From the NCBI RefSeq assembly GCF_003725775.1, contig NZ_RJSG01000003.1, positions 237,307 through 301,306 on the forward strand: a DNA stretch of 64,000 nucleotides, written 5' to 3'. The notes under the pieces are model-generated. The model was not told the DNA's origin and did no database searches. It saw only the letters and a program-made list of their open reading frames with translations. The position numbers and the translations under genes were made by a program. Positions 9,385 to 35,139 of the stretch are shown one piece after another. The stretch comes from Nocardioides marmorisolisilvae (lineage in GTDB: Bacteria; Actinomycetota; Actinomycetes; Propionibacteriales; Nocardioidaceae). Position 1 is the stretch's first letter. Each line of letters opens with the position of its first letter.

Positions 9385-9391
9385 CTTTTGG

Positions 9392-13299: not shown

Positions 13300-13306
13300 C
13301 TCCGAC

Positions 13307-14485: not shown

Positions 14486-14493
14486 GATTGCCT

Positions 14494-14646: not shown

Positions 14647-15741
<1,095 letters not shown>

Positions 15742-20700: not shown

Positions 20701-20830
20701 CGCTCTGGTAACCGCTCTCCTTGTATTCCTCCGGCCGAAACTCCGCGACCACCGTGCTCTCGTCACTCACAGAGATTGGCTCGAAGTGGGTGGCGCTGCC
20801 CGCCGCGCCAAGCTCGGAAAACTCGGTCAC
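17774..20830 (-). CDS. hsdR: Type I restriction enzyme, restriction/translocation subunit
   Basis: The 1018-aa HsdR subunit translocates DNA and cuts it when the target site is unmethylated. The N-terminal nuclease core is visible as NRYDVTVLVNGLPMVHIELKRRG (about residues 165-185, PD-ExK type). The helicase has Walker A TTGSGKT near 333, the DEAD-box variant FDECHRSQFGD near 430 and motif III GFTGTPIF. Arginine-finger helicase motifs follow (VNMFLTGFDATTLN, LIQAYSRTNRI). The length is normal for the family. The start overlaps the hsdS stop by four bases. No truncation or frameshift is seen, so it should be active. Confidence 0.95.
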   Translation of the reverse strand: MTEFSELGAAGSATHFEPISVSDESTVVAEFRPEEYKESGYQSEAELEAAFVELLQGQAYEYLPIVSSSALETNLRAQLEMLNKIKFTDPEWQRFFNESISCKNDGIVEKTARIQEDHIQVLKRDDGTAKNIFLIDKSNIHNNRLQVVNQYEVEGVRSNRYDVTVLVNGLPMVHIELKRRGVDIREAFNQINRYQRESFWADSGLFQYVQLFVISNGTLTKYYSNTTRERHVNETVGGKRGRKQSSNTFEFTSWWADASNRAIADLTGFTKTFFAKHTLLSILTRYCVFDVDRNLLVMRPYQIVAAERILQRIETSTNYKRLGSIGAGGYVWHTTGSGKTLTSFKAAQLASKLPSVDKVLFVVDRKDLDYQTQREYDRFEKGAVDGTTNTAHLKRRLEDPASRIIVTTIQKLARFVSYERGHEVFHAHVVVIFDECHRSQFGDMHLAVTNVFRRYNLFGFTGTPIFAENAGSSGNPQLRTTAQAFGDKLHTYTIVDAINDKNVLPFRIDYVNTLKIPANLTDKQVAAINTEAALLSPERVGAVTSYILDHFDQKTRRNSTYRLGEKRVAGFNSMFATASIDAAKRYYKAFEEAQSLREETVPGYQRLKVGLIFSYAANEDLDGGILDEEEFETSDLDGGSRDFLEGAIQDYNRMFGTSFDTSAGRFQNYYKDLSQRLKNRELDLAIVVNMFLTGFDATTLNTLWVDKNLRQHGLIQAYSRTNRILNSVKTYGNIVSFRDLEQATNDALSLFGNKEAKGIVLLKPYADYYAEYTKLVADLAALFPLEQPIFGEAAQKEFIALFGAILRLRNILVSFDDFFGHEILTERDFQDYRSIYLNLYAEFRGQNAAEKESINDDVVFEIELIKQIEVNVDYILLLVEQWRGARGNGSDVEMNALMNIQRAIDSSITLRNKRDLILAFVDSVNITGDTGDDWRRFVEAKKAKELEALIVDEDLKPEETRAFIVDAFRDGAIPTAGTAVTKILPPVSRFAAGGNHAIKKQTVLAKLATFFDRYSSLT

Positions 20831-22071
20831 GCGACTTCCTTGAACGTGAGCAACTTGTCCCTGTAGTGCTCGTACTGCTGGCGGCGCGCGGCAATCTCAA
20901 TCGGCAGATCGACCGACAAGTTGTTCACGACAGCGTCGAATTTATCGAGGATGTCGACGATCCGCTCTTGCTCCTTCATCGTTGGCACAGGGATCTCGAT
21001 CTTGCCGAACCCAGCAACAAGCAAGGTGTTCACCTTGGTTCGGGCGATGTACTTCGCCTTCTCGCGGCGAAACCAACTCGTCTGCATGATGTAAGAGACG
21101 AACGCGGGGTTGAGTGCGTGCCGGAAGGCGTAACTGTGGTCGTGAATCGCAACGGGCTCATCCCCGAGCCACGCTACGGCCTTCCCGACATCCTCGACAG
21201 TTTCACCGACATCCACGATCACGACATCACCCGGCTGGGCGTACCGAAGGCCCGAAGCGTTGTCCCGGCGGAGGTGCGAAACCACCGACGTCGCCGAGGT
21301 GCCGAAGTGGGTGTAGATCTCGCCATAGTGGATGCAGGGGATGCCGGCGTCCTCAAAGTCGGCCTTCGTAAATCTCTTGCCCCGAATGAACCGACCCAGG
21401 TCGCTCAACGGCGCCCACCTGACTTTCTCCCCGTCGGAGAAGCTGAGGATCGCATCACGGTAGTGGCCGTATTGCTGACGACGCCGTTCCAACTCAGCCT
21501 GAAGCTGCAATTCTAACTCCGCCTGCAACGAACTGAAACGGCTAAGTACGCCGACGACTTCTCGTTGGATCTCGATCGGCGGAATCGGAACTCTGAAGTC
21601 CAACAACGTCGATGACTTGATGGCAGCCATCGACCCATCGGTTCGACCAGCAACCGCGAGAATCGACTCTGCGCGCGACCGGCAGGCCTGAAGCAAGTAC
21701 TCGGGGAGAACATCTTCGTGGGGGATGACGGCGCGCATATCTTGATTGAGCGTGACGTCGAAAGGGACCAGTGCGATTGGAAGACGACGGCGGAGGACAT
21801 TAGAGCGCACGACGAAGGCGACCGATCCTGCTGGCACGAGCTTCAACGGGGATTGCTCCAGCGCCTTTACGGACACACGAAGGCCTGTCGCACGGATCGT
21901 CTCAACCACCATGTCTTTGGGCGAAAGCCAGGGCACCGTCCCGTCCTGCCAAAACTCGGCGTTGCTCTTGGAGGGCGTTCCCCCGCCGTGCCAAGTTCCT
22001 ACGTCGCGAAGCGGCCGAAACTCGACGCCGTCCGGGCACAGTTCGTTGATCAATTCCTCGATTCCGCTCAC
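20827..22071 (-). CDS. hsdS: Type I restriction system specificity subunit
   Basis: The 414-aa subunit carries two target recognition domains that read the two halves of a bipartite DNA site. The first TRD (about residues 15-170) ends in PIPPIEIQREVVGVL, followed by a central helix with RRRQQYGHYRDAIL. The second TRD (about 215-375) ends in PVPTMKEQERIVDIL, followed by a C-terminal helix with ARRQQYEHYRDKLL. The near-repeat of the two helical spacers is the known hallmark of HsdS. It overlaps hsdM and hsdR by four bases on each side. The recognition sequence cannot be predicted by eye. Confidence 0.94.
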   Translation of the reverse strand: MSGIEELINELCPDGVEFRPLRDVGTWHGGGTPSKSNAEFWQDGTVPWLSPKDMVVETIRATGLRVSVKALEQSPLKLVPAGSVAFVVRSNVLRRRLPIALVPFDVTLNQDMRAVIPHEDVLPEYLLQACRSRAESILAVAGRTDGSMAAIKSSTLLDFRVPIPPIEIQREVVGVLSRFSSLQAELELQLQAELERRRQQYGHYRDAILSFSDGEKVRWAPLSDLGRFIRGKRFTKADFEDAGIPCIHYGEIYTHFGTSATSVVSHLRRDNASGLRYAQPGDVVIVDVGETVEDVGKAVAWLGDEPVAIHDHSYAFRHALNPAFVSYIMQTSWFRREKAKYIARTKVNTLLVAGFGKIEIPVPTMKEQERIVDILDKFDAVVNNLSVDLPIEIAARRQQYEHYRDKLLTFKEVA

Positions 22072-23642
22072 ACAGCACCCCCTTCGAGGTCGTCAACTAT
22101 CGCGTTGATCTGCGTGCGCAACTCGGCCTGCCTCGCGACTATGCCGGCGATCTCGGCGTTGAGCCACGCGATGTCGACTACCTCGCGGGTGTCCTCATCC
22201 TCGACGTAGGCGCTAACTGCGATGTTGTAGTTGTTGGCGGCCACGATGTCGAAGTCGACCAAAGTCGCGAAGTGATCGACGTCCTCACGAGAGGTGAAAG
22301 CGTGAAGGATTGCTCGTTGGTTCTCGTGGGCGAGTCTGTTCTTGTTGCCCTGGCGGGTGAACTCTGCGGAGGCGTCGATGAACAGGATCTTGTTGTCAGC
22401 CTTGGATTTCTTGAGCACGATCACACAGGTCGCGATCGTCGTACCGAAGAAGAGATCCGGCGGGAGCTGGATGACGGTGTCGACGTAATTGTTGTCGACG
22501 AGATACTTGCGGATCTTCTGCTCAGCACCTCCGCGGTAGAGCACGCCGGGGAACTCGACGATCGCAGCGGTGCCGTTAACCGCGAGCCAGCTCAGGATGT
22601 GCATCGTGAACGCCAGGTCAGCCTTCGATTTCGGGGCGAGCACTCCGGCCGGCGCGTATCGCGGATCGTTGATGAGCAGCGGGTTGGCGTCGCCGTCCCA
22701 TCTGATCGAGTAAGGCGGGTTGGACACGATCGCTTCAAATGGCTCCTCATCCCAGTGGGCAGGGTCGATCAGCGTGTCGCCGTGGGCGATCTCGAACTTC
22801 TCGTACGGGATGTCGTGTAGGAACATGTTGATCCGGCACAGGTTGTAGGTCGTCAGGTTGACCTCCTGGCCGAAGTAGCCCTGCCGCACCTTGCCGTGGC
22901 CCAGGACCTTCTCGTACTTCAGCAGCATCGATCCGGACCCACAGGCCGGGTCGTAGACCTTGTTGACCTCGGTCTTGCCGACGACTGTGATCCTGGCCAG
23001 GAGTTCGGCGACCTCCTGCGGCGTGTAGTACTCGCCACCCGACTTGCCAGCCGCCGATGCGTACATCTGCATCAGGTACTCGTAGGCGTCGCCAAAGAGA
23101 TCGTTGCTGTTCTCCCTAAAGGCACCACCGAGCGGAAGGTCACCGATGGCGTCGAGCAGCTTGACGAGCTTCTCGTTGCGCTTGGCGACGGTCGGACCGA
23201 GCTTGCTGCTGTTGACGTCAAGGTCATCGAAGAGTCCTTTGATGTCCTCCTCGGAGTTCGCACCGATGGCGGAGGCTTCGATGTTCTTGAAGACGCGGCT
23301 CAGGGTCTCGTTGAGGTTCTCGTCGTGGCGAGCCTTCTCCCGGACGTTCGCGAAGAGGTCTTGCGGGAGGATGTAGAACCCCTTCTCCTTGACGGTCTCG
23401 TCACGGCCGAACTCCGCGTCGGCACCATCCAGGTTGCGGTAGTCGAAACCTTCGTTGCCCGCCAGTCGTTCCTGCTCGTTGAGGTACACCGTCAGGTTCT
23501 CGGAAATGAAGCGGTAGAAGAGCATCCCGAGCACGTAGGTCTTGAAGTCCCACCCGTCGACGCTGCCGCGCAGGTCGTTGGCGATCCGCCAGATGGTCTT
23601 GTGGAGTTCTGCCCGCTCGGACTCCTTGTTCGTAGCGCTCAC
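22068..23642 (-). CDS. hsdM: Type I restriction system DNA adenine methyltransferase subunit
   Basis: The 524-aa N6-adenine methyltransferase has an N-terminal helical HsdM domain (IWRIANDLRGSVDGWDFKTYVLGMLFYRFIS), the AdoMet motif DPACGSGSMLL near residue 231 and the catalytic N-P-P-Y-S near 307. It methylates the host's own sites together with HsdS and is needed for HsdR cleavage. It is the first gene of the hsdM-hsdS-hsdR operon, with four-base overlaps throughout. The modification gene being first is common in mobile type I systems. Confidence 0.95.
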   Translation of the reverse strand: MSATNKESERAELHKTIWRIANDLRGSVDGWDFKTYVLGMLFYRFISENLTVYLNEQERLAGNEGFDYRNLDGADAEFGRDETVKEKGFYILPQDLFANVREKARHDENLNETLSRVFKNIEASAIGANSEEDIKGLFDDLDVNSSKLGPTVAKRNEKLVKLLDAIGDLPLGGAFRENSNDLFGDAYEYLMQMYASAAGKSGGEYYTPQEVAELLARITVVGKTEVNKVYDPACGSGSMLLKYEKVLGHGKVRQGYFGQEVNLTTYNLCRINMFLHDIPYEKFEIAHGDTLIDPAHWDEEPFEAIVSNPPYSIRWDGDANPLLINDPRYAPAGVLAPKSKADLAFTMHILSWLAVNGTAAIVEFPGVLYRGGAEQKIRKYLVDNNYVDTVIQLPPDLFFGTTIATCVIVLKKSKADNKILFIDASAEFTRQGNKNRLAHENQRAILHAFTSREDVDHFATLVDFDIVAANNYNIAVSAYVEDEDTREVVDIAWLNAEIAGIVARQAELRTQINAIVDDLEGGAV

Positions 23643-23898: not shown

Positions 23899-24369
23899 TT
23901 AACCCAGGTAGGGCTGGCTCGACCTGGACATGCCGTGCCGCACACGCAGACGGCTCGAGTCATGCATCGCCAGATCGGCGATCTCGCTCTTGTCGAACCA
24001 TCCTGTCCGAGGGGTTTCGCCACTAGTGCCTAGGGAGCCTCCGAGCAGCTCAGCTCTGAAAGAGACGGCGAACTGCTGGCGTACCTCCCCATCGTCGTAT
24101 GCGATTACATGCTTCGGATCGGAGTAGATCCCAACCACGTCGACCACACGCACCCGGTAACCGGTCTCCTCGAGCACCTCGCGCTCGGCCGCACCAGAGA
24201 GCGTCTCGCCAATCTCCATTCCGCCTCCCGGCAGCGCCCAAAGTCCGTTGTCGGATCTCTGGACGAGCAGCACGCGGCCGGCATCGTCCTGAACGAACAC
24301 CGTGGCGGCCGGAACCAGGCTGTTTGCCGGCGGCGCAGCTGGGTCGTCGTAGTACTCCCTGCGACCCAT
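23899..24369 (-). CDS. Nudix hydrolase
   Basis: The 156-aa protein contains a complete Nudix box at residues 49-71: GGMEIGE, then seven residues, then REVLEETGY, which binds Mg2+ for hydrolysis of a nucleoside diphosphate linked to another group. It starts seven bases after the stop of the HTH regulator gene, so the two form one unit. Pairs of this kind are widespread in actinobacteria. The substrate is unknown; the short N-terminal YYDDPAAPPANS segment before the domain is also common in the paired forms. Confidence 0.9.
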   Translation of the reverse strand: MGRREYYDDPAAPPANSLVPAATVFVQDDAGRVLLVQRSDNGLWALPGGGMEIGETLSGAAEREVLEETGYRVRVVDVVGIYSDPKHVIAYDDGEVRQQFAVSFRAELLGGSLGTSGETPRTGWFDKSEIADLAMHDSSRLRVRHGMSRSSQPYLG

Positions 24370-24376: not shown

Positions 24377-25123
24377 CTAGCTCCAGGCGGGTTGGGCTTC
24401 GTCCCAAACTCTGTCGTACATCGTCGCGTACGTATCGAACAACCCTCCGGCGGTGAGTCGCCGCAAGTGCATCGCAGGAGCCTGGGCCGCCGGGAGGCCG
24501 TAGACGTGCGGGTTAGCGATCATGTCGTCGTCCCCGCGGTAGATCGAGGTGTACAGAGTCGTCCCGTGAGTGCGGACGACGACGCCATTCGCGCCGGCGA
24601 GCTGCTTCTTAAGCAAGGTGATCGAGTTCTGAACCTTGGTCGCCACTGCATCGCCGATGCCCTCGTCCCCGCCACGAACCATCACCGCTCGCGAGTTGGG
24701 ATCACCCACAAGGACTCGAACTCGCACGCCGTCGGCACCCTTGTCTCGAAGGAGATCAATCAGGTGGGGGTTATGTTCGGGAAGGAACAGGCCCGCGTAA
24801 ACGAGGATGTCGATGTATGTCTCCGCATCCCCGAACAACCGCTTGAACTCGTCCGGGTGGATCAGCGATCGATGGGGATGGAGTTCCACCAGTTCGCCTC
24901 GAGACGCGGCCTCCGCGCGCTCCGGACTTATCGCGTGCGGCCACAGATAGCCCTCGCGCTCGTGGACGAGCTCAGAGACGCGCAGCCGATGCCTCGCGTA
25001 GGGCGTTCGATCCTGCGTGATCCAGCGCTCGACCGTCTTGGGGTCAACACCGATCTGCTCGCCGAGCGTCCCCGGCGTCAGGCCGGAGCCGAGCATTGCG
25101 TCGCGTAACCGTTCGTTTGTCAT
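24377..25123 (-). CDS. HTH regulator with a C-terminal PLD-like/DUF5919-type domain
   Basis: The 248-aa product has an N-terminal Cro/XRE-type HTH (LGEQIGVDPKTVERWITQDRTPYARHR). After it comes a domain resembling the one I recall as DUF5919, found beside Nudix hydrolases in many actinobacteria (ETYIDILVYAGLFLPEHNP, RVRVLVGDPNSRAVMVRG, THGTTLYTSIYRGDDDMIANPHVYG). The last stretch has the H-x(n)-N look of a degenerate phospholipase D motif. The ATG at 25123 is the natural start; a much longer open frame upstream crosses the divergent promoter and is unlikely. Direct and inverted GACGTCCC copies just upstream suggest autoregulation. The family name is from memory. Confidence 0.78.
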   Translation of the reverse strand: MTNERLRDAMLGSGLTPGTLGEQIGVDPKTVERWITQDRTPYARHRLRVSELVHEREGYLWPHAISPERAEAASRGELVELHPHRSLIHPDEFKRLFGDAETYIDILVYAGLFLPEHNPHLIDLLRDKGADGVRVRVLVGDPNSRAVMVRGGDEGIGDAVATKVQNSITLLKKQLAGANGVVVRTHGTTLYTSIYRGDDDMIANPHVYGLPAAQAPAMHLRRLTAGGLFDTYATMYDRVWDEAQPAWS

Positions 25124-25141: not shown

Positions 25142-25205
25142 ATGGGACGTCTTCACGGTAGCAGGACGTCCCGACATGTCCCATTTACGTGGTTGAGACG
25201 TCCCC
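25142..25205. promoter_or_regulatory. Cluster of GACGTCCC-type repeats between divergent HTH genes
   Basis: ATGGGAC (25142-25148) faces GTCCCAT (25178-25184). The palindrome GGACGTCC lies at 25164-25171 and a further GACGTCCCC at 25197-25205. All share a GACGTCCC-like core. The cluster stands before the HTH/Nudix pair on one strand and the excisionase-like genes on the other, so it could coordinate the two. Confidence 0.5.
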
Positions 25206-25258
25206 AGAACCACGGGCACCGTCAGGGGGTAGTCGATGCTCCGGGACCAGGAGGAACC

Positions 25259-25501
25259 ATGGACAAGGTCGAGGCCGCTTCCACCGCCATTGCGGAGAAC
25301 TCCGACTCCGCTGGTCTCGAAGGCTTGCCCGTGCTGGTCTCGGTACCGCGGGCCGCGCAGCTTCTGGGTATCAGCCGCTCCGCGGCGTACCGCTGCGCGG
25401 CCAGCGGGGATCTGCCGACGGCTCACCTCGGCGGACGAGTTTACGTAGTGACCGCCCAACTGCGGCACATGCTGCTCGGACGTCGCGGCTGTGGAGCGTG
25501 A
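25259..25501 (+). CDS. Small HTH (excisionase-like) protein
   Basis: The 80-aa protein contains a MerR/excisionase-type winged HTH (VSVPRAAQLLGISRSAAYRCAASGDLPTAHLGGRVYVVT). Such proteins bend DNA for directional excision or regulate the element's genes. The ATG follows a strong GGAGG, which is preferred over longer in-frame extensions. Ten bases separate it from the next small HTH gene, and the integrase follows that. Confidence 0.75.
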   Translation: MDKVEAASTAIAENSDSAGLEGLPVLVSVPRAAQLLGISRSAAYRCAASGDLPTAHLGGRVYVVTAQLRHMLLGRRGCGA

Positions 25502-25510
25502 GGTCTCGCC

Positions 25511-25720
25511 ATGACGATGACGAAGCTCCTCACGGTGGACGAAGCCGCAGACGCGCTCAACACGACGCCGCGGTTCGTACGACGCCTGGTGGCCGAGCGC
25601 CGAATCTCCTTTCACCATGTCGGCCGGCACGTTCGGATCGCCGAGCCAGATCTCGAGGCATTCGTGGCCGCAGGACGCGTGGCGTCGGACGGGCGGCTTG
25701 TGGCGAGGGCGTCCGCATGA
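25511..25720 (+). CDS. Excisionase-family DNA-binding protein
   Basis: The 69-aa protein is a typical excisionase-family HTH: LLTVDEAADALNTTPRFVRRLVAERRISFHHVGRHVRIAEPDLEAFVAAG. Its stop codon overlaps the integrase start (ATGA), which indicates translational coupling and supports a role as recombination directionality factor for this element. Confidence 0.82.
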   Translation: MTMTKLLTVDEAADALNTTPRFVRRLVAERRISFHHVGRHVRIAEPDLEAFVAAGRVASDGRLVARASA

Positions 25721-26841
25721 GTTCACGACGGCGCTTCGGCGCGATCCGGAAGCTGCCTTCAGGGCGGTGGCAGGCATCATTCATCGGTCCGACAGGGCAT
25801 CGCACGACTGCACCCCGCACCTTCGCTACCAAGGCCGACGCAGATCGGTGGCTCGCCGCGTCCGAACTTGAGATCAGCCGAGGCACCTGGCTCGACGATC
25901 GGGCGGCCGGGACCACGTTTCAGGAGTACGCCGAGCAGTGGCTTGAGGACAACACCCGCCTGGGACCCCGCTCACGTGAAACCAACGAACGAAACCTGCG
26001 TCTGCACCTGGCCCCGCTCGCCGGGGTACCGCTTAGGGCACTAACCCCGACAGCTGTTCGCAGTTGGTACTCGACAGCGATCCGTGGTCGCGGCGGCAAC
26101 ACTTCGATCGATCAGGCCTACCGGCTTCTACGAGCAGTACTCAACACCGCTGTTCGGGAGGGGCTGTTGGCCAAGAACCCCTGCCAGATCCCCGGTGCCG
26201 GAGCCCCGCGAGCGAAACGGCGGACGGTGGCGACGCCGAAGCAGGTAGCAGCTCTCATCGACGAGATCCCCGGTCCGTACAAGGCTGCCGTCCTGCTCGC
26301 CGCATGGGGCGGTCTGCGTCGTGGAGAGATCCTGGCGCTGCGTCGTGCAGACCTGGATCTTGAAGCGGGCACCGTCAGCGTTCATAGAAACCAGGTCGAG
26401 TTGCTCGCTCGCCGATCCCGCTTCGACGCGAAGCCGAAGACGGATGCCGGCTACCGGACCGTCGCCCTGCCGCCCCACGTGATCCCGGTGCTGAAGAAGC
26501 ATCTGAACCTGTACGCCGGCGCTACGAGGTTGTTCGTATCCAGCACCGGTGGCCCGATGCCCGGAGATTCGCTCACCCAAGCCTTCTCCCGGGCGCGGGA
26601 TCGGCTGGGCATGGAGGGCTTCCGCTTCCACGACCTCCGCCACACGGGTCAGACGCTCGCGGCGGCGACCGGGGCGACGCTGGCGGACCTCATGAAACGC
26701 CTAGGCCACTCGTCGCCGGCCGCAGCAATGCGGTACCTCCACACGGTGAACGGGCGGGACGAGGCCATTGCCGAAGCCCTCAGCGCAATCGCCGAGTACG
26801 GCGACGCGTCGAAGCTCCCGAAGTCGGTGACGATGAAGTGA
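25717..26841 (+). CDS. Tyrosine recombinase / integrase of the island
   Basis: The 374-aa phage-type integrase has an N-terminal arm-binding segment (SGRWQASFIGPTGHRTTAPRTFATKADADRWL), a SAM-like core-binding domain (about 70-165), and a C-terminal catalytic domain. Catalytic residues visible are the first Arg in WGGLRRGEIL, HDLRHT (His-x-x-Arg), the His in LGHSS and the Tyr in AAMRYLH. It reads toward the tRNA fragment 61 bases after its stop, with tandem TTGCACG repeats in between that could be its arm sites. The ATG overlaps the excisionase stop; a much longer frame upstream is a shadow. Confidence 0.95.
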   Translation: MSSRRRFGAIRKLPSGRWQASFIGPTGHRTTAPRTFATKADADRWLAASELEISRGTWLDDRAAGTTFQEYAEQWLEDNTRLGPRSRETNERNLRLHLAPLAGVPLRALTPTAVRSWYSTAIRGRGGNTSIDQAYRLLRAVLNTAVREGLLAKNPCQIPGAGAPRAKRRTVATPKQVAALIDEIPGPYKAAVLLAAWGGLRRGEILALRRADLDLEAGTVSVHRNQVELLARRSRFDAKPKTDAGYRTVALPPHVIPVLKKHLNLYAGATRLFVSSTGGPMPGDSLTQAFSRARDRLGMEGFRFHDLRHTGQTLAAATGATLADLMKRLGHSSPAAAMRYLHTVNGRDEAIAEALSAIAEYGDASKLPKSVTMK

Positions 26842-26865: not shown

Positions 26866-26901
26866 CGGCTTATGGCGCTCTGACCTGCGCTTTCGATCTG
26901 C

Positions 26902-26946
26902 CTGAAAATCGGAAGGTCGGCGGTTCGACCCCGCCCCTGGCCACCA
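26902..26946 (+). repeat. attR-like 3' fragment of a tRNA-Phe(GAA) gene
   Basis: The sequence matches positions 32-76 of a tRNA exactly: anticodon loop CTGAAAA (anticodon GAA), 3' stem TCGGA, variable loop AGGTC, T-stem GGCGG with loop TTCGACC and CCGCC, acceptor CCTGGCC, discriminator A and CCA. The bases upstream do not form a D-arm or a matching acceptor strand (GGCCAGG is missing), so this is not a functional tRNA. It is best explained as the displaced 3' end of the tRNA gene used as integration site. Confidence 0.8.
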
Positions 26947-26950
26947 CACA

Positions 26951-26983
26951 CAACAGCCGCAGGTCATCGACCTGCGGCTGTTG
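26951..26983 (+). terminator. Strong hairpin just after the tRNA fragment
   Basis: Perfect 15-bp arms (CAACAGCCGCAGGTC and its complement) enclose an ATC loop. Its position four bases after the CCA end fits the original tRNA terminator, now separated from the tRNA promoter by the island. Confidence 0.75.
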
Positions 26984-27011: not shown

Positions 27012-27836
27012 ATGGGGCTCGAGGAGAAGTACGGTCCGTGGGCGCTCGTCGCCGGCGCGAGCGAGGGCGTCGGCGCGTTGTTCGCCGAGGAGCTGGCGGC
27101 GCGCGGTCTCAACGTCGTCCTGCTGGCACGCCGCCAGGCGACGCTCGACGAGGTCGCCGCAGGCATCCGCGAGCGGAGCGGGGTGCAGACCCGGACGCTG
27201 GCGGTCGACCTCGCGACGCCGGGCGCAGCCGCCGAGGTGACCGCAGCACTGGCCGACCTCGAGATCGGGATGCTCGTCTACTGCGCGGGAGCGGACGCCG
27301 ACTACGCCGCCCTGCTCGACAAGCCGGTCAGCACCGCCGAGGCCCTGATCCACCGCAACTGCACGGTGCTCGTCCAGCTCTGCCACGCGTTCGCCGGCCC
27401 GATGGTCGCGCGCGGCCGCGGCGGCATCGTCATCTTCGGCTCGGGCAGCAGCTTCGCCGGGGCGCCGAAGCTCGCGACGTACGGCGGCACGAAGGCGTTC
27501 GACATGGTTTTCGCCGAAGGCCTCTGGGCCGAGCTGAAGCCGCAGGGCGTGGACGTCCTCGGCCTGGTCCTCGGCGAGACCGACACCCCGGCACTGCGCC
27601 GGATGCGGCACCAGCTCGGGCTCGCGGCCACCGCGGACGAACGACCTCCGGCTGCCGCCTCCGCGGCTGCGGTCGTCGCTGACGGGCTCGCCAACCTGGG
27701 CAACGGCCCGATCCGGATGGCCGACCGCAAGCTGCGCCTGGGCTCCCGCGCGTTCTTCCCGATGGGTCGCAACCTGATGGCCAAGATGATGGCGCAGGCC
27801 ACCGTGAAGACCATGGAACCCCGCAAGCGCGGGTAG
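27012..27836 (+). CDS. Short-chain dehydrogenase/reductase
   Basis: The 274-aa SDR has the Rossmann glycine motif G-A-S-E-G-V-G at residues 15-21, the structural L-V-Y-C-A-G strand in place of NNAG, a serine in SGSSFAGA and the catalytic Tyr157-x-x-x-Lys161 (YGGTK). The substrate is not predictable; relatives act on ketones, steroids or acyl chains. It is the first gene right of the island border. The ATG at 27012 starts the fold at the right distance from the glycine motif; upstream in-frame sequence crosses the tRNA terminator and is rejected. Confidence 0.85.
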   Translation: MGLEEKYGPWALVAGASEGVGALFAEELAARGLNVVLLARRQATLDEVAAGIRERSGVQTRTLAVDLATPGAAAEVTAALADLEIGMLVYCAGADADYAALLDKPVSTAEALIHRNCTVLVQLCHAFAGPMVARGRGGIVIFGSGSSFAGAPKLATYGGTKAFDMVFAEGLWAELKPQGVDVLGLVLGETDTPALRRMRHQLGLAATADERPPAAASAAAVVADGLANLGNGPIRMADRKLRLGSRAFFPMGRNLMAKMMAQATVKTMEPRKRG

Positions 27837-27855
27837 CTGCTCCTAGGCTTCCAGC

Positions 27856-28593
27856 GTGCCCTTCACCCTCGCCCACCCGGCAGCGGTCCTGCTGCTGCCG
27901 CGCACCCCGCTCCCGGTGGCGGCGATGGTGGCCGGGGCGATGTCGCCCGACGTACCGGTGTTCTTCGACGCCTACGGCCGCCCGTACAACTTCACGCACA
28001 GCGCGCCCGGCATCGTCACCGTCGACCTGGCGTTCGGCCTGCTCGCCGTGGCGTTCTGGTTCGCGGTCCTGCGCGACCCGCTCGTCGACGTGATGCCCGC
28101 CGCGATCCGCGACCGTCTCGACCCGCGTGCCCGCTACTCCCGCCAGCAGTGGCGGCTAGCGGTCCCGGCCGTCCTCGCCGGATCGGTGACCCACGTCGTC
28201 TGGGACCTGTTCACCCACCACAACCGGTGGGGGGTGCGGCACATCGCGTGGCTGCAGGAGCAGCACGGACGGTTGCACGGGTACCACTGGGCGCAGTACG
28301 TCTCGAGCGTCGCCGGGATGACGATCTGCGCGCTCTGGGGCGCCCTCGTGCTGCGGGGGCGCGAGCCGCGGCCGCACCCGGTCGCCGTGCCGGCGCTCGG
28401 CGTACGGGCCCTGGTCGTGGTCGTCGGGCTCACCCTCGCGTCCGGAGTCGCGGCGGGCATCAACGCGCCCGACCCGGGGATCGGGATGTTCTTCAGCCAG
28501 ACAGCAGTGGTCGCCACCATGATCGGCGCCTTCCTGCTGGTGGCGCTGTCCCTCACCTGGAACCTGCTCGGCAGAGCTACGCGCAGGGCGTAG
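27856..28593 (+). CDS. DUF4184 family membrane protein
   Basis: The 245-aa protein begins M-P-F-T-L-A-H-P-A-A-V, the DUF4184 signature, followed by PDVPVFF and several transmembrane helices (about residues 55-75, 95-115, 150-170, 180-200, 215-240). A VWDLFTHHNRWG motif with histidines recalls metal-dependent membrane hydrolases, but no function is established. It starts with GTG 19 bases after the SDR stop and converges with the protease gene, overlapping it by 17 bases. Confidence 0.85.
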   Translation: MPFTLAHPAAVLLLPRTPLPVAAMVAGAMSPDVPVFFDAYGRPYNFTHSAPGIVTVDLAFGLLAVAFWFAVLRDPLVDVMPAAIRDRLDPRARYSRQQWRLAVPAVLAGSVTHVVWDLFTHHNRWGVRHIAWLQEQHGRLHGYHWAQYVSSVAGMTICALWGALVLRGREPRPHPVAVPALGVRALVVVVGLTLASGVAAGINAPDPGIGMFFSQTAVVATMIGAFLLVALSLTWNLLGRATRRA

Positions 28594-29341
28594 CGCCGAC
28601 CTTCGCCAGGCCGGCGAGGTCGCCCGGCCCGAAGTCGAGCAGCCCGACGTTCTCGGCGTTCATCAGCTCGCCGCTGTCCTTCACGTGCGCCAGTCCGACC
28701 AGGTGGCCGAGCTCGTGCAGCACGATCGCGCGCGCCTCTCGGCGGCCGTCCGCGGTCCTGGCGAGGTCGCGGAAGACCGCACGGTCGAGCGTCACGCCGC
28801 CGGTGACGTAGCGGAAGCGACCACCCTGGACCGAGACCGCGACGCTGCCCCCGATGCCGGCGACCCGGCCGGCGAGCTGCGGCACCTCGCTCGGGCTGGC
28901 GAAGGACACCAGCGCCGGCGTACGCCGTGGCTCGCCCAGGAACGACGGGATGTACTCGTTCTCCCAGTGCGGCCGGTCCTCGGTGGTGCCGACGTACTCG
29001 AGCTCGAGGCCGGTGTCGCGACTGACCTCCGCCATCGCGTCCTTCACCAACGCCAGGTAGCCCGTGGGTGCGTCCTGCGGATTGATGCGCACCTTCACGG
29101 GCTTGCACGGGTCGTACCCGACCGGGTCGTCCCGATCGCCCTTCTGGTGGGAGAGGAAGGCGTAGCTGCCGGTGCCGGTGACCTCGACCTCGGGGAGAAG
29201 CCGGTGGTGGCCGAACCCCAGCGCGTCGCGGATCGGGCCGGGCACCAGTGAGGGCGCCAGGGCGAGTGCGCCTGCGAGCACGACGATGAACGCGAACCCC
29301 GGGATGAAGGCGCGCAGGTCGCGCCTCGGGCTGTCGTCCAT
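28577..29341 (-). CDS. Membrane-anchored matrixin-like zinc metalloprotease
   Basis: The 254-aa protein has an N-terminal membrane segment (about residues 12-33) and an extracellular domain with the zinc motif HELGHLVGLAH near residues 209-219, followed by a Met in GELMNAENVG that can form the Met-turn of metzincins. The CKPVKVRINP and DAMAEVSRDTGLELEYVG segments are typical of bacterial matrixin-like proteases. The target is unknown. The 3' end overlaps the convergent DUF4184 gene by 17 bases. Confidence 0.82.
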   Translation of the reverse strand: MDDSPRRDLRAFIPGFAFIVVLAGALALAPSLVPGPIRDALGFGHHRLLPEVEVTGTGSYAFLSHQKGDRDDPVGYDPCKPVKVRINPQDAPTGYLALVKDAMAEVSRDTGLELEYVGTTEDRPHWENEYIPSFLGEPRRTPALVSFASPSEVPQLAGRVAGIGGSVAVSVQGGRFRYVTGGVTLDRAVFRDLARTADGRREARAIVLHELGHLVGLAHVKDSGELMNAENVGLLDFGPGDLAGLAKVGATPCA

Positions 29342-29362
29342 GACGACGAGCCTAGGTTCGGC

Positions 29363-29599
29363 TCAGTCGAGGACCTTCACGGACCCGACGCTGTACAGCC
29401 GCATCGCCAGCGCAACGGCCGCCGGCGTGAGGATCGCGACCGGCACGAGCAGCAGCAGGCGTCCGGCGTCGTGCACCGCCGCGACCGTGCCGTGGAGCCA
29501 GGCCGACCAGACCTCGTCGTGGTAGCTGACGGCTGCCTCGCCGTCCCAGGTGGCGACGTCTACGCCGCCCGGTTCCGCAACTGTTCCGTTCTCGTTCAT
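29363..29599 (-). CDS. Small single-pass membrane protein, hypothetical
   Basis: The 78-aa protein has an acidic N-terminal half (WDGEAAVSYHDEVWSAWL) and one hydrophobic stretch (LLLLVPVAILTPAAVALAM). GGGGAGGGG lies about five bases before the ATG. It precedes the protease gene by 21 bases on the same strand and may be co-expressed. No family recognised. Confidence 0.6.
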   Translation of the reverse strand: MNENGTVAEPGGVDVATWDGEAAVSYHDEVWSAWLHGTVAAVHDAGRLLLLVPVAILTPAAVALAMRLYSVGSVKVLD

Positions 29600-29786
29600 G
29601 TCGACCCCTCCCCTAGGTCCCTGGATGCAGCATCTCGGCGGTCACTCTTCTCATGAGACCTATCGGCCGACGACTGATACATCTGTGGGGAATAGTATCA
29701 AAAGGCTCAATTCGGACATAGGGAAACCGATGAACTCTGTTATCACCACGGAGGATCCGAGCAGCACCACGGCACAAGGAGGTGCC

Positions 29787-30683
29787 ATGAACGAGCAGAA
29801 GGTCACCAAGAACACCCGGGACGTCTTCGTCCTCTCCGGTGGCGCGTCCCGCGGCGCGGTGCAGGTCGGGATGATGCAGACCCTGATCGAGGCGGGCATC
29901 GTCCCCGACGGTCTGGTCGGCTCGTCGGTCGGCGCGCTGAACGCCGCGTTCATGGGCTGGCAGCCGGGCCCCGAGCGGGTGAGCAAGCTCGCCGACCAGT
30001 GGCTGCGCCTGCAGACCCGGGACATCTTTCCGGGCGGCAACTGGACGCGTCTCTCCCACCTGGCCCGCCGGCACTCCTACCTCTTCGACTCCTACGCGCT
30101 GAGCTCGCTGATCCACGCCTGGGTGCCGGTGCGCAACCTGGAGGAGCTCACCGTCCCGGTCCGGATCACCACGACGCCGTTGGCCAGCTGCGCCGCGAAG
30201 TACCACGACCGTGGTCCGATCGAGAAGATCCTGCTGGCCTCGGCCGCCGTTCCCGGCGTGTTCGAACCGGTCGAGCTCGTCGACGAGGACGGTGCCCGCA
30301 GCACCCACGTCGACGGCGGCGTCGCGGACCTGATCCCGGTCGCCGGGACGGTCGCGCTCGCCCCCACCCGGGTCTTCGTGCTGGACGCGACGGTGCCGGT
30401 CCGCATCCCGCGCGCCCGTACGCCGATCGAGATCCTGATCGCCAGCCTGGGCATCGCCGTCCGGGTCCGTCCGATGCCGGACCTCGGCCCGGACGTGGAG
30501 GTGCACCACCTGACCGCTCCGGACCTCGGCACCGGGATGATCGACTTCAGCCGGAGCGCCGAGCACATCGCGCTGGGGCGCAAGGTCGCCGCCGAGCTCG
30601 TCGAGAGTCTCGGCGTGAAGCCCGCACCGCTGACCGACCGCCCGCACCGTTTCTGGGACCGGTTCAGCAAGAGCGCTGCATGA
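29787..30683 (+). CDS. Patatin-like phospholipase
   Basis: The 298-aa predicted lipase has the patatin layout: oxyanion loop SGGASRGAVQVG (residues 17-28), nucleophile Ser47 in GSSVG and catalytic Asp176 in HVDGG. It probably hydrolyses phospholipids or other acyl esters in the cytoplasm or at the membrane. The ATG at 29787 is chosen because AAGGAGG is placed ideally before it; earlier in-frame starts exist in an AT-richer leader that is more likely the promoter. Confidence 0.88.
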   Translation: MNEQKVTKNTRDVFVLSGGASRGAVQVGMMQTLIEAGIVPDGLVGSSVGALNAAFMGWQPGPERVSKLADQWLRLQTRDIFPGGNWTRLSHLARRHSYLFDSYALSSLIHAWVPVRNLEELTVPVRITTTPLASCAAKYHDRGPIEKILLASAAVPGVFEPVELVDEDGARSTHVDGGVADLIPVAGTVALAPTRVFVLDATVPVRIPRARTPIEILIASLGIAVRVRPMPDLGPDVEVHHLTAPDLGTGMIDFSRSAEHIALGRKVAAELVESLGVKPAPLTDRPHRFWDRFSKSAA

Positions 30684-30715
30684 CGCGGGCGTTCCGCGCC
30701 TGTTGAATAGCACGC

Positions 30716-31474
30716 ATGAGCGTGCACTTCGACACCGCTGACGGCATCGCCGTCGTCACCATCGACCGGCCCGAGGCGCGCAACGCCGTGGACGGGCCCA
30801 CGGCGCAGGCGCTGGCGGACGCGTTCCGGGCCTTCGACGCGGACGACTCGTTGTCGGTCGCGATCCTCACCGGCGCGGGGGGCACCTTCTGCGCCGGCGC
30901 CGACCTCAAGGCGATGGGCACCGAGAACAGCAACCGCTTGGAACGGGACGGTGACGGGCCGATGGGCCCGAGCCGGATGGACCTCTCCAAGCCGGTGATC
31001 GCCGCCATCGAGGGCTACGCGGTGGCGGGCGGCATCGAGCTCGCACTCTGGTGCGACCTGCGGGTCGCGGCTGCCGACGCGGTGCTCGGTGTCTTCTGCC
31101 GGAGGTGGGGCGTCCCCCTCATCGACGGTGGCACCGTCCGGCTGCCGCGGCTGATCGGCGAGTCCCGCGCGATGGACCTGATCCTCACCGGTCGCCCGGT
31201 CGAGGCGGACGAGGCGCTCGCCATCGGCCTGGTGAACCGGGTCGTGCCGACCGGCACCGCGCTCGAGGCAGCGCGTCGCCTCGCCCTGGAGATCGCCGCG
31301 TTCCCGCAGCTGTGCGTCCGCAGCGACCGCGCCAGCGCCCGCGGGCAGTGGTCGATGACCGAGGCCGAAGCCATCACGGTCGAGCTGGAGCACGGCATCC
31401 CGACGGTGCTCGCCGAGGCGCTCGACGGTGCGGCGCGCTTCGCCGGCGGAAGCGGTCGGCACGGCACGTTCTGA
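30716..31474 (+). CDS. Enoyl-CoA hydratase/isomerase-family (crotonase) protein
   Basis: The 252-aa protein has the crotonase fold: IDRPEARNAVDG at the N-terminus, first oxyanion-hole strand TFCAGADLKAMG and second EGYAVAGGIELALWCDLRVA. The usual catalytic glutamates are not in place: the LPEV-like segment reads GVFCRRWGV, and the G-x-G-G-T segment reads LIDGGT with Asp. It may therefore be an isomerase, a hydrolase or a divergent EchA rather than a standard hydratase. It follows the patatin gene by 32 bases. Confidence 0.85.
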   Translation: MSVHFDTADGIAVVTIDRPEARNAVDGPTAQALADAFRAFDADDSLSVAILTGAGGTFCAGADLKAMGTENSNRLERDGDGPMGPSRMDLSKPVIAAIEGYAVAGGIELALWCDLRVAAADAVLGVFCRRWGVPLIDGGTVRLPRLIGESRAMDLILTGRPVEADEALAIGLVNRVVPTGTALEAARRLALEIAAFPQLCVRSDRASARGQWSMTEAEAITVELEHGIPTVLAEALDGAARFAGGSGRHGTF

Positions 31475-31483
31475 CGTCGAACC

Positions 31484-31532
31484 GTCACTCGCGCACGCAC
31501 GAACGGTCGGTCGCGTACGCGCGAGCGGTCAC
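31484..31532 (-). repeat. Inverted copies of a GTGAC-TCG-CGTAC repeat
   Basis: On the minus strand two imperfect units are seen, GTGACCGCTCGCGCGTACGC from 31532 and a related GACCGTTCGTGCGTGCGCGA ending in GTGAC at 31484. They resemble, in opposite orientation, the tandem units at 31595-31651. Confidence 0.5.
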
Positions 31533-31594
31533 TTGTATACGTCGATCGTCGTCAACGACTCAAGGGCAGTGCTGGTGCCGGGAGGTCCGGCGAG

Positions 31595-31651
31595 GTGACC
31601 GTTCGACGTACCCGGGTGACTTCTCGACGTACGCGGGTGACCTTTCGGCGG
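31595..31651 (+). repeat. Tandem 21-bp repeats (2.7 copies)
   Basis: Units start with GTGAC at 31595, 31616 and 31637. The first two are 21 bases long and share TCGACGTAC and a CGG end; the third is cut after 15 bases. They lie in a non-coding stretch downstream of the crotonase gene and next to the bldC terminator region. Confidence 0.65.
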
Positions 31652-31687
31652 ACAGGTTGGCCGGGACCTACGTCCTGAAACGCACGA

Positions 31688-31711
31688 ACCCGACACCACC
31701 AGGTGTCGGGT
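31688..31711. terminator. Bidirectional hairpin between crotonase and bldC genes
   Basis: ACCCGACACC and GGTGTCGGGT pair around an ACCA loop. It is 31 bases after the bldC stop and over 200 bases after the crotonase stop; it most likely ends the bldC transcript. Confidence 0.65.
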
Positions 31712-31742
31712 CCGGCTGAAGAACTTGAGCGTTGCTGGCAGA

Positions 31743-31952
31743 TCAGTCCGCTGCGCCGCGCTGCGTCGGGATGACGCCGCCGAGCAGCTCCTTGACCTCG
31801 GCCTCGCGGTAGCGACGGTGGCCGCCGAGCGTGCGGATCGCGCTCAACTTGCCGGCCTTGGCCCAGCGGGTGACGGTCTTCGGGTCGACGCGGAACATCG
31901 CGGCCACCTCGGCAGGCGTCAGGAGGGTCTCGGTTTCGGAGTTGTGCTGCAT
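31743..31952 (-). CDS. bldC: BldC-family transcriptional regulator
   Basis: The 69-aa protein is nearly the whole BldC domain: LLTPAEVAAMFRVDPKTVTRWAKAGKLSAIRTLGGHRRYREAEVKELL. BldC is a small MerR-like DNA-binding protein that binds direct repeats cooperatively; in Streptomyces it controls the timing of development. The ATG at 31952 with GAGGTG seven bases upstream gives the known length, so the upstream open frame is rejected. The neighbourhood bldC-DUF3073-purM is conserved in many actinobacteria. Confidence 0.95.
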   Translation of the reverse strand: MQHNSETETLLTPAEVAAMFRVDPKTVTRWAKAGKLSAIRTLGGHRRYREAEVKELLGGVIPTQRGAAD

Positions 31953-32178
31953 TTTGGGCACCTCGTCTGGGTCTGTACTACTGAACGACACGACGAGCAT
32001 GACACTCGCGGGAACTTGTGTAAAGCAGACCAAACGGACATCGGGTTTTCGGTCTAGACCGCGGAACAAAACGGGCAGACCACGCGTAACCCAGGCGGTA
32101 ATGGATCGTACGGGCCCGGTCAGTACCTATTTCGGCACGTCCCGCACGACCCGGGCACACCCGGGAACTGACCTGGGG

Positions 32179-32373
32179 TCAGTCGCGCGAGGACGAGGGC
32201 GAGTAGTCCGCCCAGTCGTCGTAGCCGTCGGTCTCCGTCTCGGAGGCCTCGGAGGAGGTGCGCTCCTCGCCGTGAAGCTCGCTCGCGAGCGCACCGAAGT
32301 CCGTCTCGTGAGTGCGGTACTTCAGATCACGGGCAACTTTGGTCTGCTTTGCCTTAGCTCGGCCGCGTCCCAT
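32179..32373 (-). CDS. DUF3073 family protein
   Basis: The 64-aa protein starts M-G-R-G-R-A-K-A-K-Q-T-K-V-A-R-D-L-K-Y, the DUF3073 signature, and ends in an acidic, Ser-rich tail. It is a small basic/acidic protein of unknown role, found next to purM and bldC in many actinobacteria. The internal ATG at 32373 is chosen over an upstream start because the conserved N-terminus begins there. Confidence 0.92.
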   Translation of the reverse strand: MGRGRAKAKQTKVARDLKYRTHETDFGALASELHGEERTSSEASETETDGYDDWADYSPSSSRD

Positions 32374-32515
32374 TGGGTCGACCCCCTCGCGCACATGGCC
32401 GGCGCTCTCGCAGCCGGCGGGTTTCATCTCTCGTGGGGCCAACCGTACCTGCCCGAGCACCATTCCCGCACACCGGATCCGCGATGCGGCGCGCCCGCTT
32501 CGTGAGATCCGCGTC

Positions 32516-33568
32516 TCAGGCGTGGTCGCCGACCAGCCGAACCGCCCCTGCGGCGCCGTCGACGGCCGCGCTGACCTCGCCGGCCACCCAGGCCGGGAGG
32601 TCGTGCTCGGCGAGCAGGCGGACGGCCGCGTCGGCCTCGTCAGCGGGCACCAGTGCCACCATGCCGACGCCGCAGTTCAGCGTCTGCTCCAGGTCGGCCC
32701 GCTGCACGTTCCCGGTCTCGGCGACCAGCGAGAAGATCGGCGGCAGCGCCCAGGTGGAGCGGTCCAGGGTCACGGTGACGTCCTCGGGCAGCACCCGCTC
32801 GAGGTTGGAGGCGAGGCCGCCGCCGGTGATGTGCGACATCGCGTGCACCCCGGTACGCCGGGCCAGGTCGAGGCAGGCCTTCGCGTAGATCCGGGTCGGC
32901 TCAAGGAGCTCCTCCCCCAGCGTGCGGCCCAGGTCGTCGACGTGCTCGGTGAGCGACCGCTTGGCGGTGTTCAGGAGGACGTGCCGCACGAGTGAGTAGC
33001 CGTTGGAGTGCAGGCCGCTGGACGCCATCGCGACGACGACGTCGCCCGGCTTCACCAGCGGGGCGCCGAGGATCTTGTCCTTGTCGACCACGCCGGTCGC
33101 GGCGCCGGCCACGTCGTACTCGTCGGCGGCGAGCAGGCCCGGGTGCTCAGCGGTCTCACCACCGGAGAGCGCGCAGCCGGCCTCGACGCAGGCTTCCGCG
33201 ATGCCCTGGACGATGGCGGCGATCCGCTCCGGGATCACCTTGCCGGTCGCGATGTAGTCGGTCATGAACAACGGCTCGGCACCGCACACGACGAGGTCGT
33301 CGACGACCATGCCGACCAGGTCGAACCCGATCGTGTCGTGCTTGTCGAGCGCCTGGGCGATCGCGACCTTGGTGCCGACGCCGTCGGTCGAGGTCGCCAG
33401 GACCGGGTGGTCGTAGGCCTTCAGCGCACTCGCGTCGAAGAGGCCGGCGAAGCCACCGATGCCGCCCATCATCTCGGGTCGGCGCGCCTTCTCGATCCAG
33501 ACCTTCATCAGCTCGACGGCCTTGTCGCCGGCCTCGATCGAGACGCCGGCGGCTTCGTACGTGGACAT
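32516..33568 (-). CDS. purM: Phosphoribosylformylglycinamidine cyclo-ligase (AIR synthetase)
   Basis: The 350-aa enzyme makes AIR from FGAM with ATP, step five of purine biosynthesis. Family features are the N-terminal TYEAAGVSIEAGDKAVELM, LATSTDGVGTKVAIA, GFDLVGMVVDDLVVCGAEPLF and ALSGGETAEHPG. It follows purF by eight bases, with AAGGGA before its ATG, so the two are one operon. Confidence 0.97.
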   Translation of the reverse strand: MSTYEAAGVSIEAGDKAVELMKVWIEKARRPEMMGGIGGFAGLFDASALKAYDHPVLATSTDGVGTKVAIAQALDKHDTIGFDLVGMVVDDLVVCGAEPLFMTDYIATGKVIPERIAAIVQGIAEACVEAGCALSGGETAEHPGLLAADEYDVAGAATGVVDKDKILGAPLVKPGDVVVAMASSGLHSNGYSLVRHVLLNTAKRSLTEHVDDLGRTLGEELLEPTRIYAKACLDLARRTGVHAMSHITGGGLASNLERVLPEDVTVTLDRSTWALPPIFSLVAETGNVQRADLEQTLNCGVGMVALVPADEADAAVRLLAEHDLPAWVAGEVSAAVDGAAGAVRLVGDHA

Positions 33569-33576
33569 GGGTTCCC

Positions 33577-35139
33577 TTACGGTCGTTCGAGAGCGTCAGC
33601 GGCGCCGCCGCCGGCCAGCGACGCTGCCAGCCCGTCGACGTCCAGGGCGCGGTCGGGCACGACGGCCTCGACCTCGAGCAGGTGCTTGCCGAGCAGCTCG
33701 GGCTCGGGGAGCGGGATCGGGTACTCGCCGTCGAAGCAGGCGCGGCACAGGTTGGGCGAGGCCACCGTCGTCGCCTCGGTGAGCTCCTCCAGGGAGATGT
33801 AGGCGAGGGAGTCGGCGCCGATCGACGCGCAGATCTCCTCGGTCGAGAGCCCGTTCGCGATCAGCTCGGCGCGGGTGGCGAAGTCGATGCCGTAGAAGCA
33901 CGGCCACTTCACCGGCGGCGAGGAGATGCGCACGTGCACCTCGCGGGCGCCGGCCTCGCGGAGCATCCGGATCAGCGCGCGCTGGGTGTTGCCGCGCACG
34001 ATCGAGTCGTCGACGACGACCAGTCGCTTGCCCTCGATCACGTCGCGCAACGGGTTCAGCTTGAGCCGGATGCCGAGCTGGCGGATCGTCTGGCTCGGCT
34101 GGATGAAGGTGCGGCCGACGTAGGAGTTCTTGACCAGGCCGACACCGTAGGGGATGCCGCTCGCCTCGGCGTAGCCGATCGCGGCCGGCGTACCGGACTC
34201 CGGCACCGGGATCACCAGGTCGGCATCGGCGGGGAACGAGCGGGCCAGCTTGCGGCCGATCTCCACGCGGACGCTGTGCACCCGCTGGTCGGAGATGATC
34301 GTGTCCGGTCGGGCCAGGTAGACGAACTCGAAGAGGCAGCCCTTCGGCGCGGCGTCGGCGAAGCGGCGGCTGCGCAGTCCGTCCTCGTCGACGGCGACCA
34401 TCTCGCCCGGCTCGATCTCGCGGATGTAGGAGGCGCCGACGATGTCCAGCGCCGCGGTCTCCGAGGCGACCACCCAGCCGCGCTCGAGACGTCCGAGCAC
34501 GAGCGGTCGGATGCCCTGCGGGTCGCGGGCGGCGTACAGGGTGCCCTCGTCCATCCAGACGAACGAGTAGGCACCCTTCACCTGCGGCAGCAGCTCGGCC
34601 GCGCGGTCCTCCAGCGACTGGTCCGGGTGGTACGCGAGCAGCGCGGTGACCAGCGAGGTGTCGTTGGTGCTGGTCTCGAGGTTGCGGGCGTGGATGTCGA
34701 GCTCACCGGTGTCGCTCGGCAGGTCCGCGACCATCTGCGCGAGGTCGCGGGTGTTGATCAGGTTGCCGTTGTGACCGAGCGCGATGGAGCCGTGCGCCGT
34801 GGGCCGGAACGTCGGCTGGGCGTTGTGCCAGGTGCTCGCGCCGGTGGTCGAGTAGCGCGCGTGGCCGATCGCGAGGTGACCCTTCAGCGACGACAGCGTG
34901 GACTCGTCGAAGACCTGCGAGACCAGGCCCATGTCCTTGTAGACCAGGATCTGGCGACCGTTGCTGACGGCGATGCCGGCTGATTCCTGGCCGCGGTGCT
35001 GGAGCGCGTAGATGCCGTAGTAGGCGAGCTTGGCGACGTCCTCGCCGGGAGCCCAGACACCGAAGACGCCACAGGCGTCCTGGGGTCCGCGGTCGGTCGG
35101 GTCGAGCTCGTGCGTCAGTCGTCCATCCCCGCGGGCCAC
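33577..35139 (-). CDS. purF: Amidophosphoribosyltransferase
   Basis: The 520-aa enzyme catalyses the first committed step of purine biosynthesis, moving glutamine amide nitrogen to PRPP. The glutaminase nucleophile is Cys23 (DACGVFGVW) after a short propeptide, as in the Bacillus-type enzymes that are processed. The PRPP loop is VVVDDSIVRGNTQR, and ALQHRGQESAG is present. GTG is the start. It is the upstream gene of the purF-purM pair, and the M20 peptidase gene ahead of it ends only ten bases away. Confidence 0.97.
   Translation of the reverse strand: MARGDGRLTHELDPTDRGPQDACGVFGVWAPGEDVAKLAYYGIYALQHRGQESAGIAVSNGRQILVYKDMGLVSQVFDESTLSSLKGHLAIGHARYSTTGASTWHNAQPTFRPTAHGSIALGHNGNLINTRDLAQMVADLPSDTGELDIHARNLETSTNDTSLVTALLAYHPDQSLEDRAAELLPQVKGAYSFVWMDEGTLYAARDPQGIRPLVLGRLERGWVVASETAALDIVGASYIREIEPGEMVAVDEDGLRSRRFADAAPKGCLFEFVYLARPDTIISDQRVHSVRVEIGRKLARSFPADADLVIPVPESGTPAAIGYAEASGIPYGVGLVKNSYVGRTFIQPSQTIRQLGIRLKLNPLRDVIEGKRLVVVDDSIVRGNTQRALIRMLREAGAREVHVRISSPPVKWPCFYGIDFATRAELIANGLSTEEICASIGADSLAYISLEELTEATTVASPNLCRACFDGEYPIPLPEPELLGKHLLEVEAVVPDRALDVDGLAASLAGGGAADALERP

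Follow-up and report, generated by a model that had tools for sequence, protein, structure and literature searches.

Half a tRNA gene in a bacterial chromosome raises the question of what it marks, and of where its intact counterpart stands. Such a half gene is found in Nocardioides marmorisolisilvae, in a stretch of 64,000 nucleotides that is here called the window (G000:C5:237307-301306, forward strand; the genome measures 3.83 Mb and comes as six contigs). Positions 26902-26946 read as the 3' part of a tRNA-Phe, from the anticodon loop (CTGAAAA) via the T arm to an encoded A-CCA, just as a first-pass annotation of the window had described it. Neither ARAGORN nor Rfam (at gathering score) called a tRNA in the window, which is expected because the fragment is a 3' half only. 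The first-pass annotation took the fragment for the right end of a genomic island of at least 26.9 kb, and predicted that the intact gene lies left of the window.

The tRNA-Phe repeat and the bounds of the element

A genome search places the intact tRNA-Phe(GAA) at C5:155038-155112, 82 kb leftward of the window and thus on the predicted side; its absence from there had been named as a finding that would speak against an island. When a 126-base query around the fragment was compared with the genome at the DNA level, setting aside the query itself and the reverse complement of a neighbouring hairpin, the single other strong match was C5:155070-155151, within this same gene. Window positions 26902-26944 (C5:264208-264250, plus strand), which form the attR core, match C5:155070-155112, the 3'-terminal part of the intact tRNA, in 43 of 43 bases. 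Base 26945 is the first mismatch, and the encoded CCA of the fragment ends at 26946. A further att copy was looked for inside the span and in the rest of the 166 kb examined, and none was found, every other stretch giving at most 26 of 43 matches. One tRNA-Phe with an intact 3' half was found in the genome; tRNA typing covered 30 of its 50 tRNA places, and calling this gene the only tRNA-Phe relies on the DNA search.

From repeat to repeat the distance is 109,138 bp, or 2.9% of the genome, with 82 kb of this lying left of the window, so that the island of at least 26.9 kb becomes one of 109.1 kb. An intact tRNA gene and a displaced fragment of it enclose a stretch that bears an integrase, the arrangement by which a genomic island is recognised. 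A mobile element of 109 kb occupies the tRNA-Phe gene, and the half tRNA gene marks where it ends on the right; on these essentials the first-pass annotation is borne out.

Insertion compared with relatives

In three genomes of the same genus (G016, G012 and G019) the left flank, the tRNA-Phe and the right flank are found together without the island. The genes of the left flank (f11 or f12 to f20) are 72-96% identical and stop at the tRNA-Phe in all three. From the tRNA-Phe to the block with bldC, purM and purF it is 10.6 kb in G016, 12.6 kb in G012 and 6.5 kb in G019, and this intervening DNA contains no second tRNA-Phe fragment. The idea that chromosomal genes lie to the right of the fragment is confirmed, and the gene order across the island was not found conserved in relatives lacking an element, a layout that the first-pass annotation had set against its own reading. 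Its suggestion of an empty site stands in part: the flanks close without the island in the three congeners, but with 6.5-12.6 kb of other DNA between them, and no empty site of the same species was found among the relatives compared. In four further genomes (G003, G009, G010 and G045) parts of the right block come after the tRNA-Phe, and the left flank genes are missing. In G007 the left flank and the tRNA-Phe are present, with the right block not seen within 22.7 kb rightward, and in G020 neither flank was seen in 32 kb. The layouts of these last two genomes, the other DNA in the congeners and the lack of a same-species empty site are counted as points against an ICE.

The chromosomal right flank occupies 27012-35139, from an SDR gene (27012-27836) via bldC (31743-31952) and purM (32516-33568) to purF (33577-35139). 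The SDR gene is the first past attR; its best relative is in G008, located elsewhere in that genome, and it was not seen at the corresponding site in the relatives examined. The left side of the fragment had been described as foreign-looking, and a comparison of GC and codon usage agrees. The GC content is 0.645 in the island against 0.695 and 0.700 in the left and right flanks, and GC3 is 0.793 in the island (81 genes of at least 300 nt), compared with 0.932 for the left flank (20 genes) and 0.937 for the right one (30 genes). Genes were called with a purpose-made codon-usage script, and their start positions are approximate.

The integration end

The predicted integrase to the left of the fragment is there and reads toward attR: a tyrosine integrase of 374 amino acids at 25717-26841 (plus strand), matching PF00589 (Phage_integrase) with 65.3 bits against a cut-off of 27.1. 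A longer frame of 550 amino acids (25189-26841) is too long; relatives align over 25717-26841, which is most probably the gene, and some have in-frame stops in the additional N-terminal part. The genome has seven Phage_integrase matches, and this one, adjoining attR, is the one inside the island. The excisionase-like genes mentioned in the first-pass annotation correspond to two genes with HTH_17 matches on the plus strand, one encoding 69 amino acids (25511-25720) and another encoding 80 (25259-25501). They are followed leftward, on the minus strand, by a possible XRE-type regulator of 248 amino acids (24377-25123), whose Pfam matches are all sub-threshold, and by a NUDIX hydrolase (23899-24369). 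Homologues of these two, 52% and 49% identical, respectively, occur in an AICE of G584.

Homologues of the integrase were drawn from 98 relatives, 394 genomes of the class and named contigs; the scan of the latter gave six loci, one of them close (Actinoplanes utahensis, 59%). Of 66 rows entered for a tree, 58 passed a filter for length and stops, and 56 were used after dropping two duplicates (L079 and L080); a partial sequence adjoining a tRNA-Phe (L177) failed the length filter and stayed outside. The island integrase falls within a clade of ten with a support of 100/100, and is the first branch of that clade. Integrase relatives sit by tRNA-Phe fragments: in seven of the other nine members of the clade, a 3' fragment resembling tRNA-Phe lies downstream of int, starting at most 120 bp past the stop codon in six and about 1.7 kb past it in G070. 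For all of these but G052, the tRNA-Phe identity is based on the fragment's own sequence and not on an intact gene at the opposite boundary. The remaining two target tRNA-Arg(CCT), as is shown by the intact tRNA-Arg at their opposite ends. RepSA adjoins int in all nine, and an FtsK/TraB domain is found slightly further off in eight (in G475 there is none on the contig concerned). These nine relatives are AICE-type elements, and the three that were measured (G052, G495 and G504) span 12.7-17.1 kb.

None of this replication and transfer machinery was found in the island. RepSA (PF20199), the type of replication initiator that the search covered, has no match in the genome; the two FtsK/TraB matches (PF01580) of the genome are on contigs 4 and 3; and Rep and TraB models built from the clade have no match in the island. 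Outside the clade, Rep and TraB are both present at seven outer loci (L146, L216-L220 and L223), and Rep, TraB and xis are all absent from the 12 sister-group rows, out of 22, that were examined (L124, L147 and L206-L215). L222 has xis and neither Rep nor TraB, and L221, being only 1.4 kb long, is uninformative. An xis gene lies by int in all five clade AICE stretches examined and at seven outer loci. Relatives of the XRE and NUDIX genes were found at one of 27 loci, the G584 AICE, and in none of the five clade stretches.

With the island integrase as the earliest branch of its clade, the tree by itself is silent on an AICE origin. The xis gene by int, together with the XRE and NUDIX relatives in G584, favours an AICE source for the integration end, and the part of this argument that concerns XRE and NUDIX is weakened by their presence at a single locus.

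Some order-mates (G079:C1:6502040-6522395, G066:C1:1677292-1716200 and G081:C1:2366435-2385590) have between three and five tRNA-Phe 3' fragments standing one after another, which looks like accretion of elements at the tRNA-Phe.

Trailers, hairpins and a candidate arm site

To the right of attR, a hairpin at 26951-26983 (plus strand) folds at -29.7 kcal/mol, lower than all of 200 shuffles. It is probably the terminator of the native tRNA-Phe, judging from its fold and from the likeness of fragment plus hairpin to the tRNA-Phe places of congeners (90% for G008 and 88% for G001). On the right side of attL there is a separate hairpin (-34.3 kcal/mol), and CCA is not encoded there. The encoded CCA therefore stands at the displaced end, and the present intact tRNA-Phe gene is without it. 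CCA is encoded in the tRNA-Phe of 15 of 20 congeners and absent in the other five (20 genomes read of 23 available from the genus). If the crossover took place inside the repeat, the present 3' half of the tRNA and its terminator would be element-borne, and the encoded CCA would have been lost. Since the trailer at attL is also similar to the native trailer of G007, the assignment of the native trailer rests on logic, and this too is counted against an ICE. Copies of the tRNA-Phe 3' end with similar trailers also occur at G052:C1:710264-723854 and G070:C1:3140137-3148977, and elements may bring along a look-alike terminator.

The motif CTGACCTGC stands 13 bases ahead of the attR core (26880-26888, plus strand) and in each arm of the hairpin at attL. 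It occurs five times in 166 kb, counting both strands, and these three places are all at element ends. Among the ten elements of the clade, the exact motif is found in four, at 13-14 bases before the core, ACCTGCGG is found at the same place in four, and G548 and G475 have neither. A reasonable guess is that CTGACCTGC is a putative Int or Xis site. In the same genome, GCAGGTCAGAG is also found just after a tRNA-Met (L003) and a tRNA-Val (L012), and this motif may be a general feature of tRNA trailers. The two AICEs in tRNA-Arg(CCT), at G495:C1:895393-908111 (L205) and G504:C1:2091485-2108588 (L204), have retained the upstream ACCTGCGG; they represent a target switch among close relatives inside a tRNA-Phe integrase clade.

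Transfer genes

A different set of relatives emerges from the genes for transfer, which with the AICE-rich lineage of the integrase are additions to the first-pass annotation. Adjoining attL are a MOBF relaxase-helicase of 1141 amino acids (PF08751, 304.7 bits against a cut-off of 25, and NCBIfam MobF above cut-off), a protein of 448 amino acids without assignment, and a DnaG-like primase. Over its full length the relaxase shares 61.1% identity with that of plasmid pTC1, where the next two genes, an unknown gene and primase/dnaG, follow in the same order. The middle of the element encodes an M23 peptidase and VirB6/SCO6881-like, SCO6880-family, VirB4-like and VirD4-like proteins. The VirD4-like coupling protein matches PF02534 clearly (111.5 bits against 20.1). 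The VirB4-like protein reaches 23.9 bits with PF12846, against a cut-off of 27.5, and all its matches to NCBIfam VirB4-like models (5.6e-16 and weaker) are below cut-off, as are the Pfam and NCBIfam matches of the VirB6-like protein; these sub-threshold matches are a further point against an ICE. A prophage is disfavoured by the relaxase and T4SS genes.

Among 341 genomes of the family, ten, its own included, have relatives of the coupling protein at E <=1e-80. Of the transfer genes, i038-i043 form a block that keeps its gene order in G017 (69-95% identity), G362 and G358, and the VirB4-like i042 aligns over its full length with 91% identity in G017. G020 has its i038 relative on the opposite side of the block, and in the stretch of G006 that was read, the coupling protein adjoins relatives of the primase, i002 and the relaxase.

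Cargo

The island's cargo comprises a type I restriction system along with catabolic and defence-like genes. The restriction system lies on the minus strand next to the integration end, with hsdM (22068-23642), hsdR (17774-20830) and an hsdS-like specificity gene (20827-22071) that matches Pfam Methylase_S. Further left, 1629-17166 is occupied by genes for sugar use: a GntR regulator, an amidohydrolase, an RraA-like protein, two ABC permeases with a binding protein and an ABC ATPase, an aldo/keto reductase, a ROK protein, an FGGY kinase, an AP_endonuc_2-type protein and an aldose epimerase. Over the whole island there are a catabolic cluster (P450, CoA ligase, FAD monooxygenase, FAA hydrolase and an Mce-type protein) and clusters for sugar acids and sugars (LUD-domain, FAA-hydrolase, ABC and kinase proteins). 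The defence-like genes are in the island outside the window (G000:C5:184604-190821), and include a STAND-like NTPase and weak mad8-, mad2- and capP-like PADLOC matches; the NTPase and an AbiU2-like protein are both below Pfam cut-offs. Also outside the window, an RHS-repeat/DUF6531 protein of 2422 amino acids is encoded at G000:C5:192598-200207, and a small gene that overlaps the end of its gene had no match in the searches. The two are reminiscent of a polymorphic toxin/immunity pair acting between bacteria.

Probable mode of movement and origin

Taken together, the locus is very probably a 109,138-bp ICE that was integrated in the tRNA-Phe(GAA) gene by its Int, with an AICE-like int-xis end and with transfer of the T4SS/MOBF kind. 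In such a case the tyrosine integrase would recombine the chromosomal tRNA-Phe gene with a tRNA 3' half carried by the element. This element-borne half would restore the tRNA and become attL (C5:155070-155112), and its native counterpart would be displaced to attR together with the terminator (window 26902-26983). Int and the Xis-like protein are expected to reverse this step and to produce a circle. The MOBF relaxase would then nick the circle, a T4SS of the VirB4/VirB6/VirD4 type would export one strand, and the primase may aid re-synthesis afterwards. The element can probably move between cells; the repeat, the genes carried and the insertion as compared with relatives are observed, and the native side of the repeat, excision, transfer and present activity are what we infer here.

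An AICE (TraB-type) lineage appears to be the source of the int-xis end, and a T4SS/MOBF lineage that of the transfer genes. The somewhat favoured account is a chimera of two conjugation classes. An AICE cassette, which in relatives is associated with TraB and RepSA, would serve a 109 kb MOBF/T4SS element, and would consist of int, xis, probably XRE and NUDIX, and a tRNA-Phe att with CTGACCTGC as putative arm sites. The element would also supply the 3' half and a look-alike terminator of the only tRNA-Phe found in the genome, and would have removed its encoded CCA.

An island that arrived as an ICE and has since lost the ability to excise or transfer would fit its large size, its heavy cargo and the lack of signs of movement here. 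The integrase and coupling-protein frames have no stops, however, the att copies are identical, and the VirB4-like protein has kept its full length relative to G017, which makes such decay rather unlikely. The different relatives of the integrase end and of the transfer genes could also come from two arrivals, first of a T4SS ICE that has lost its own integrase and then of an AICE-like element at the same tRNA-Phe site, with the middle att and the AICE rep/tra genes lost later. Accretion at a single tRNA is known (PMC9513070, from the part consulted), and order-mates carry several consecutive tRNA-Phe fragments. Yet no candidate for a third att copy in the span exceeds 26 of 43 matches, a single integrase match lies there, the clade-built models give no trace of Rep or TraB, and a composite of this kind is quite improbable. 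Chance likeness of the fragment is ruled out by the 43 identical bases, and the same bases, the adjoining integrase and the closing of the flanks in congeners leave a negligible probability for an old tRNA pseudogene with no element, for which no support was found.

A fragment of 45 bases has led to a conjugative element of 109 kb with defined ends, whose cargo is catabolic, restriction-related and defence-like. Should the chimera of AICE and T4SS parts be true, integration modules move between TraB-type and T4SS-type elements, and the lineage of an integrase would therefore not predict the transfer mechanism in Actinobacteria. The element and its AICE relatives would then also allow asking which AICE control parts (Xis, NUDIX, XRE) need TraB or RepSA.

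Comparison with known systems

Restored tRNA genes with a displaced 3' fragment at the opposite end and an anticodon-centred repeat are described for tRNA-gene islands by Islander (PMC4383910), and in the part of that source consulted there is no difference in principle from the present island. Ghinet et al. (2011, PMC3218068; consulted in part) list 17 putative T4SS-type ICEs of Actinobacteria, for which the markers are int, VirD4-like PF02534, VirB4/TraC-like PF12846 and TrwC/MOBF PF08751. Like them, the present element combines an int, a VirD4-like protein and a TrwC/MOBF relaxase in a single integrated unit, together with a candidate VirB4-like ATPase whose match stays under the cut-off. 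By sequence match, three markers out of the four (int, VirD4-like and TrwC/MOBF) clearly point to a T4SS-type actinobacterial ICE. Its integrase clusters with AICE integrases, a feature in which it may differ from those 17.

With AICEs of the pSAM2 type with RepSA (as seen in the consulted part of PMC3218068 and in the nine relatives) the island shares the integrase clade, xis by int and a tRNA 3' end as target, and also the NUDIX and possible XRE genes adjoining int/xis. That same part mentions that AICEs can contain NUDIX genes, and also that an mdp-nud-xre cluster is shared. In contrast to these elements, neither RepSA nor FtsK/TraB was found in the island, and it measures 109 kb against 12.7-17.1 kb in three relatives. 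An AICE-lineage int and xis in a tRNA 3' end is a shared module and not membership among the AICEs. The relaxase and gene order are shared with pTC1 of Paenarthrobacter aurescens TC1 (CP000475), which is a 328-kb plasmid.

No description of an AICE-lineage integrase on a T4SS ICE was found in the literature searched, whose scope did not include the T4SS-ICE table of PMC3218068 or its announced follow-up, and no absence from print is claimed. The consulted part of Ghinet et al. states that there are extensive exchanges among ICE sub-families. An ICE in a tRNA gene follows an ordinary and well-known principle, and the added interest of this one is an AICE-lineage integration end on a T4SS element.
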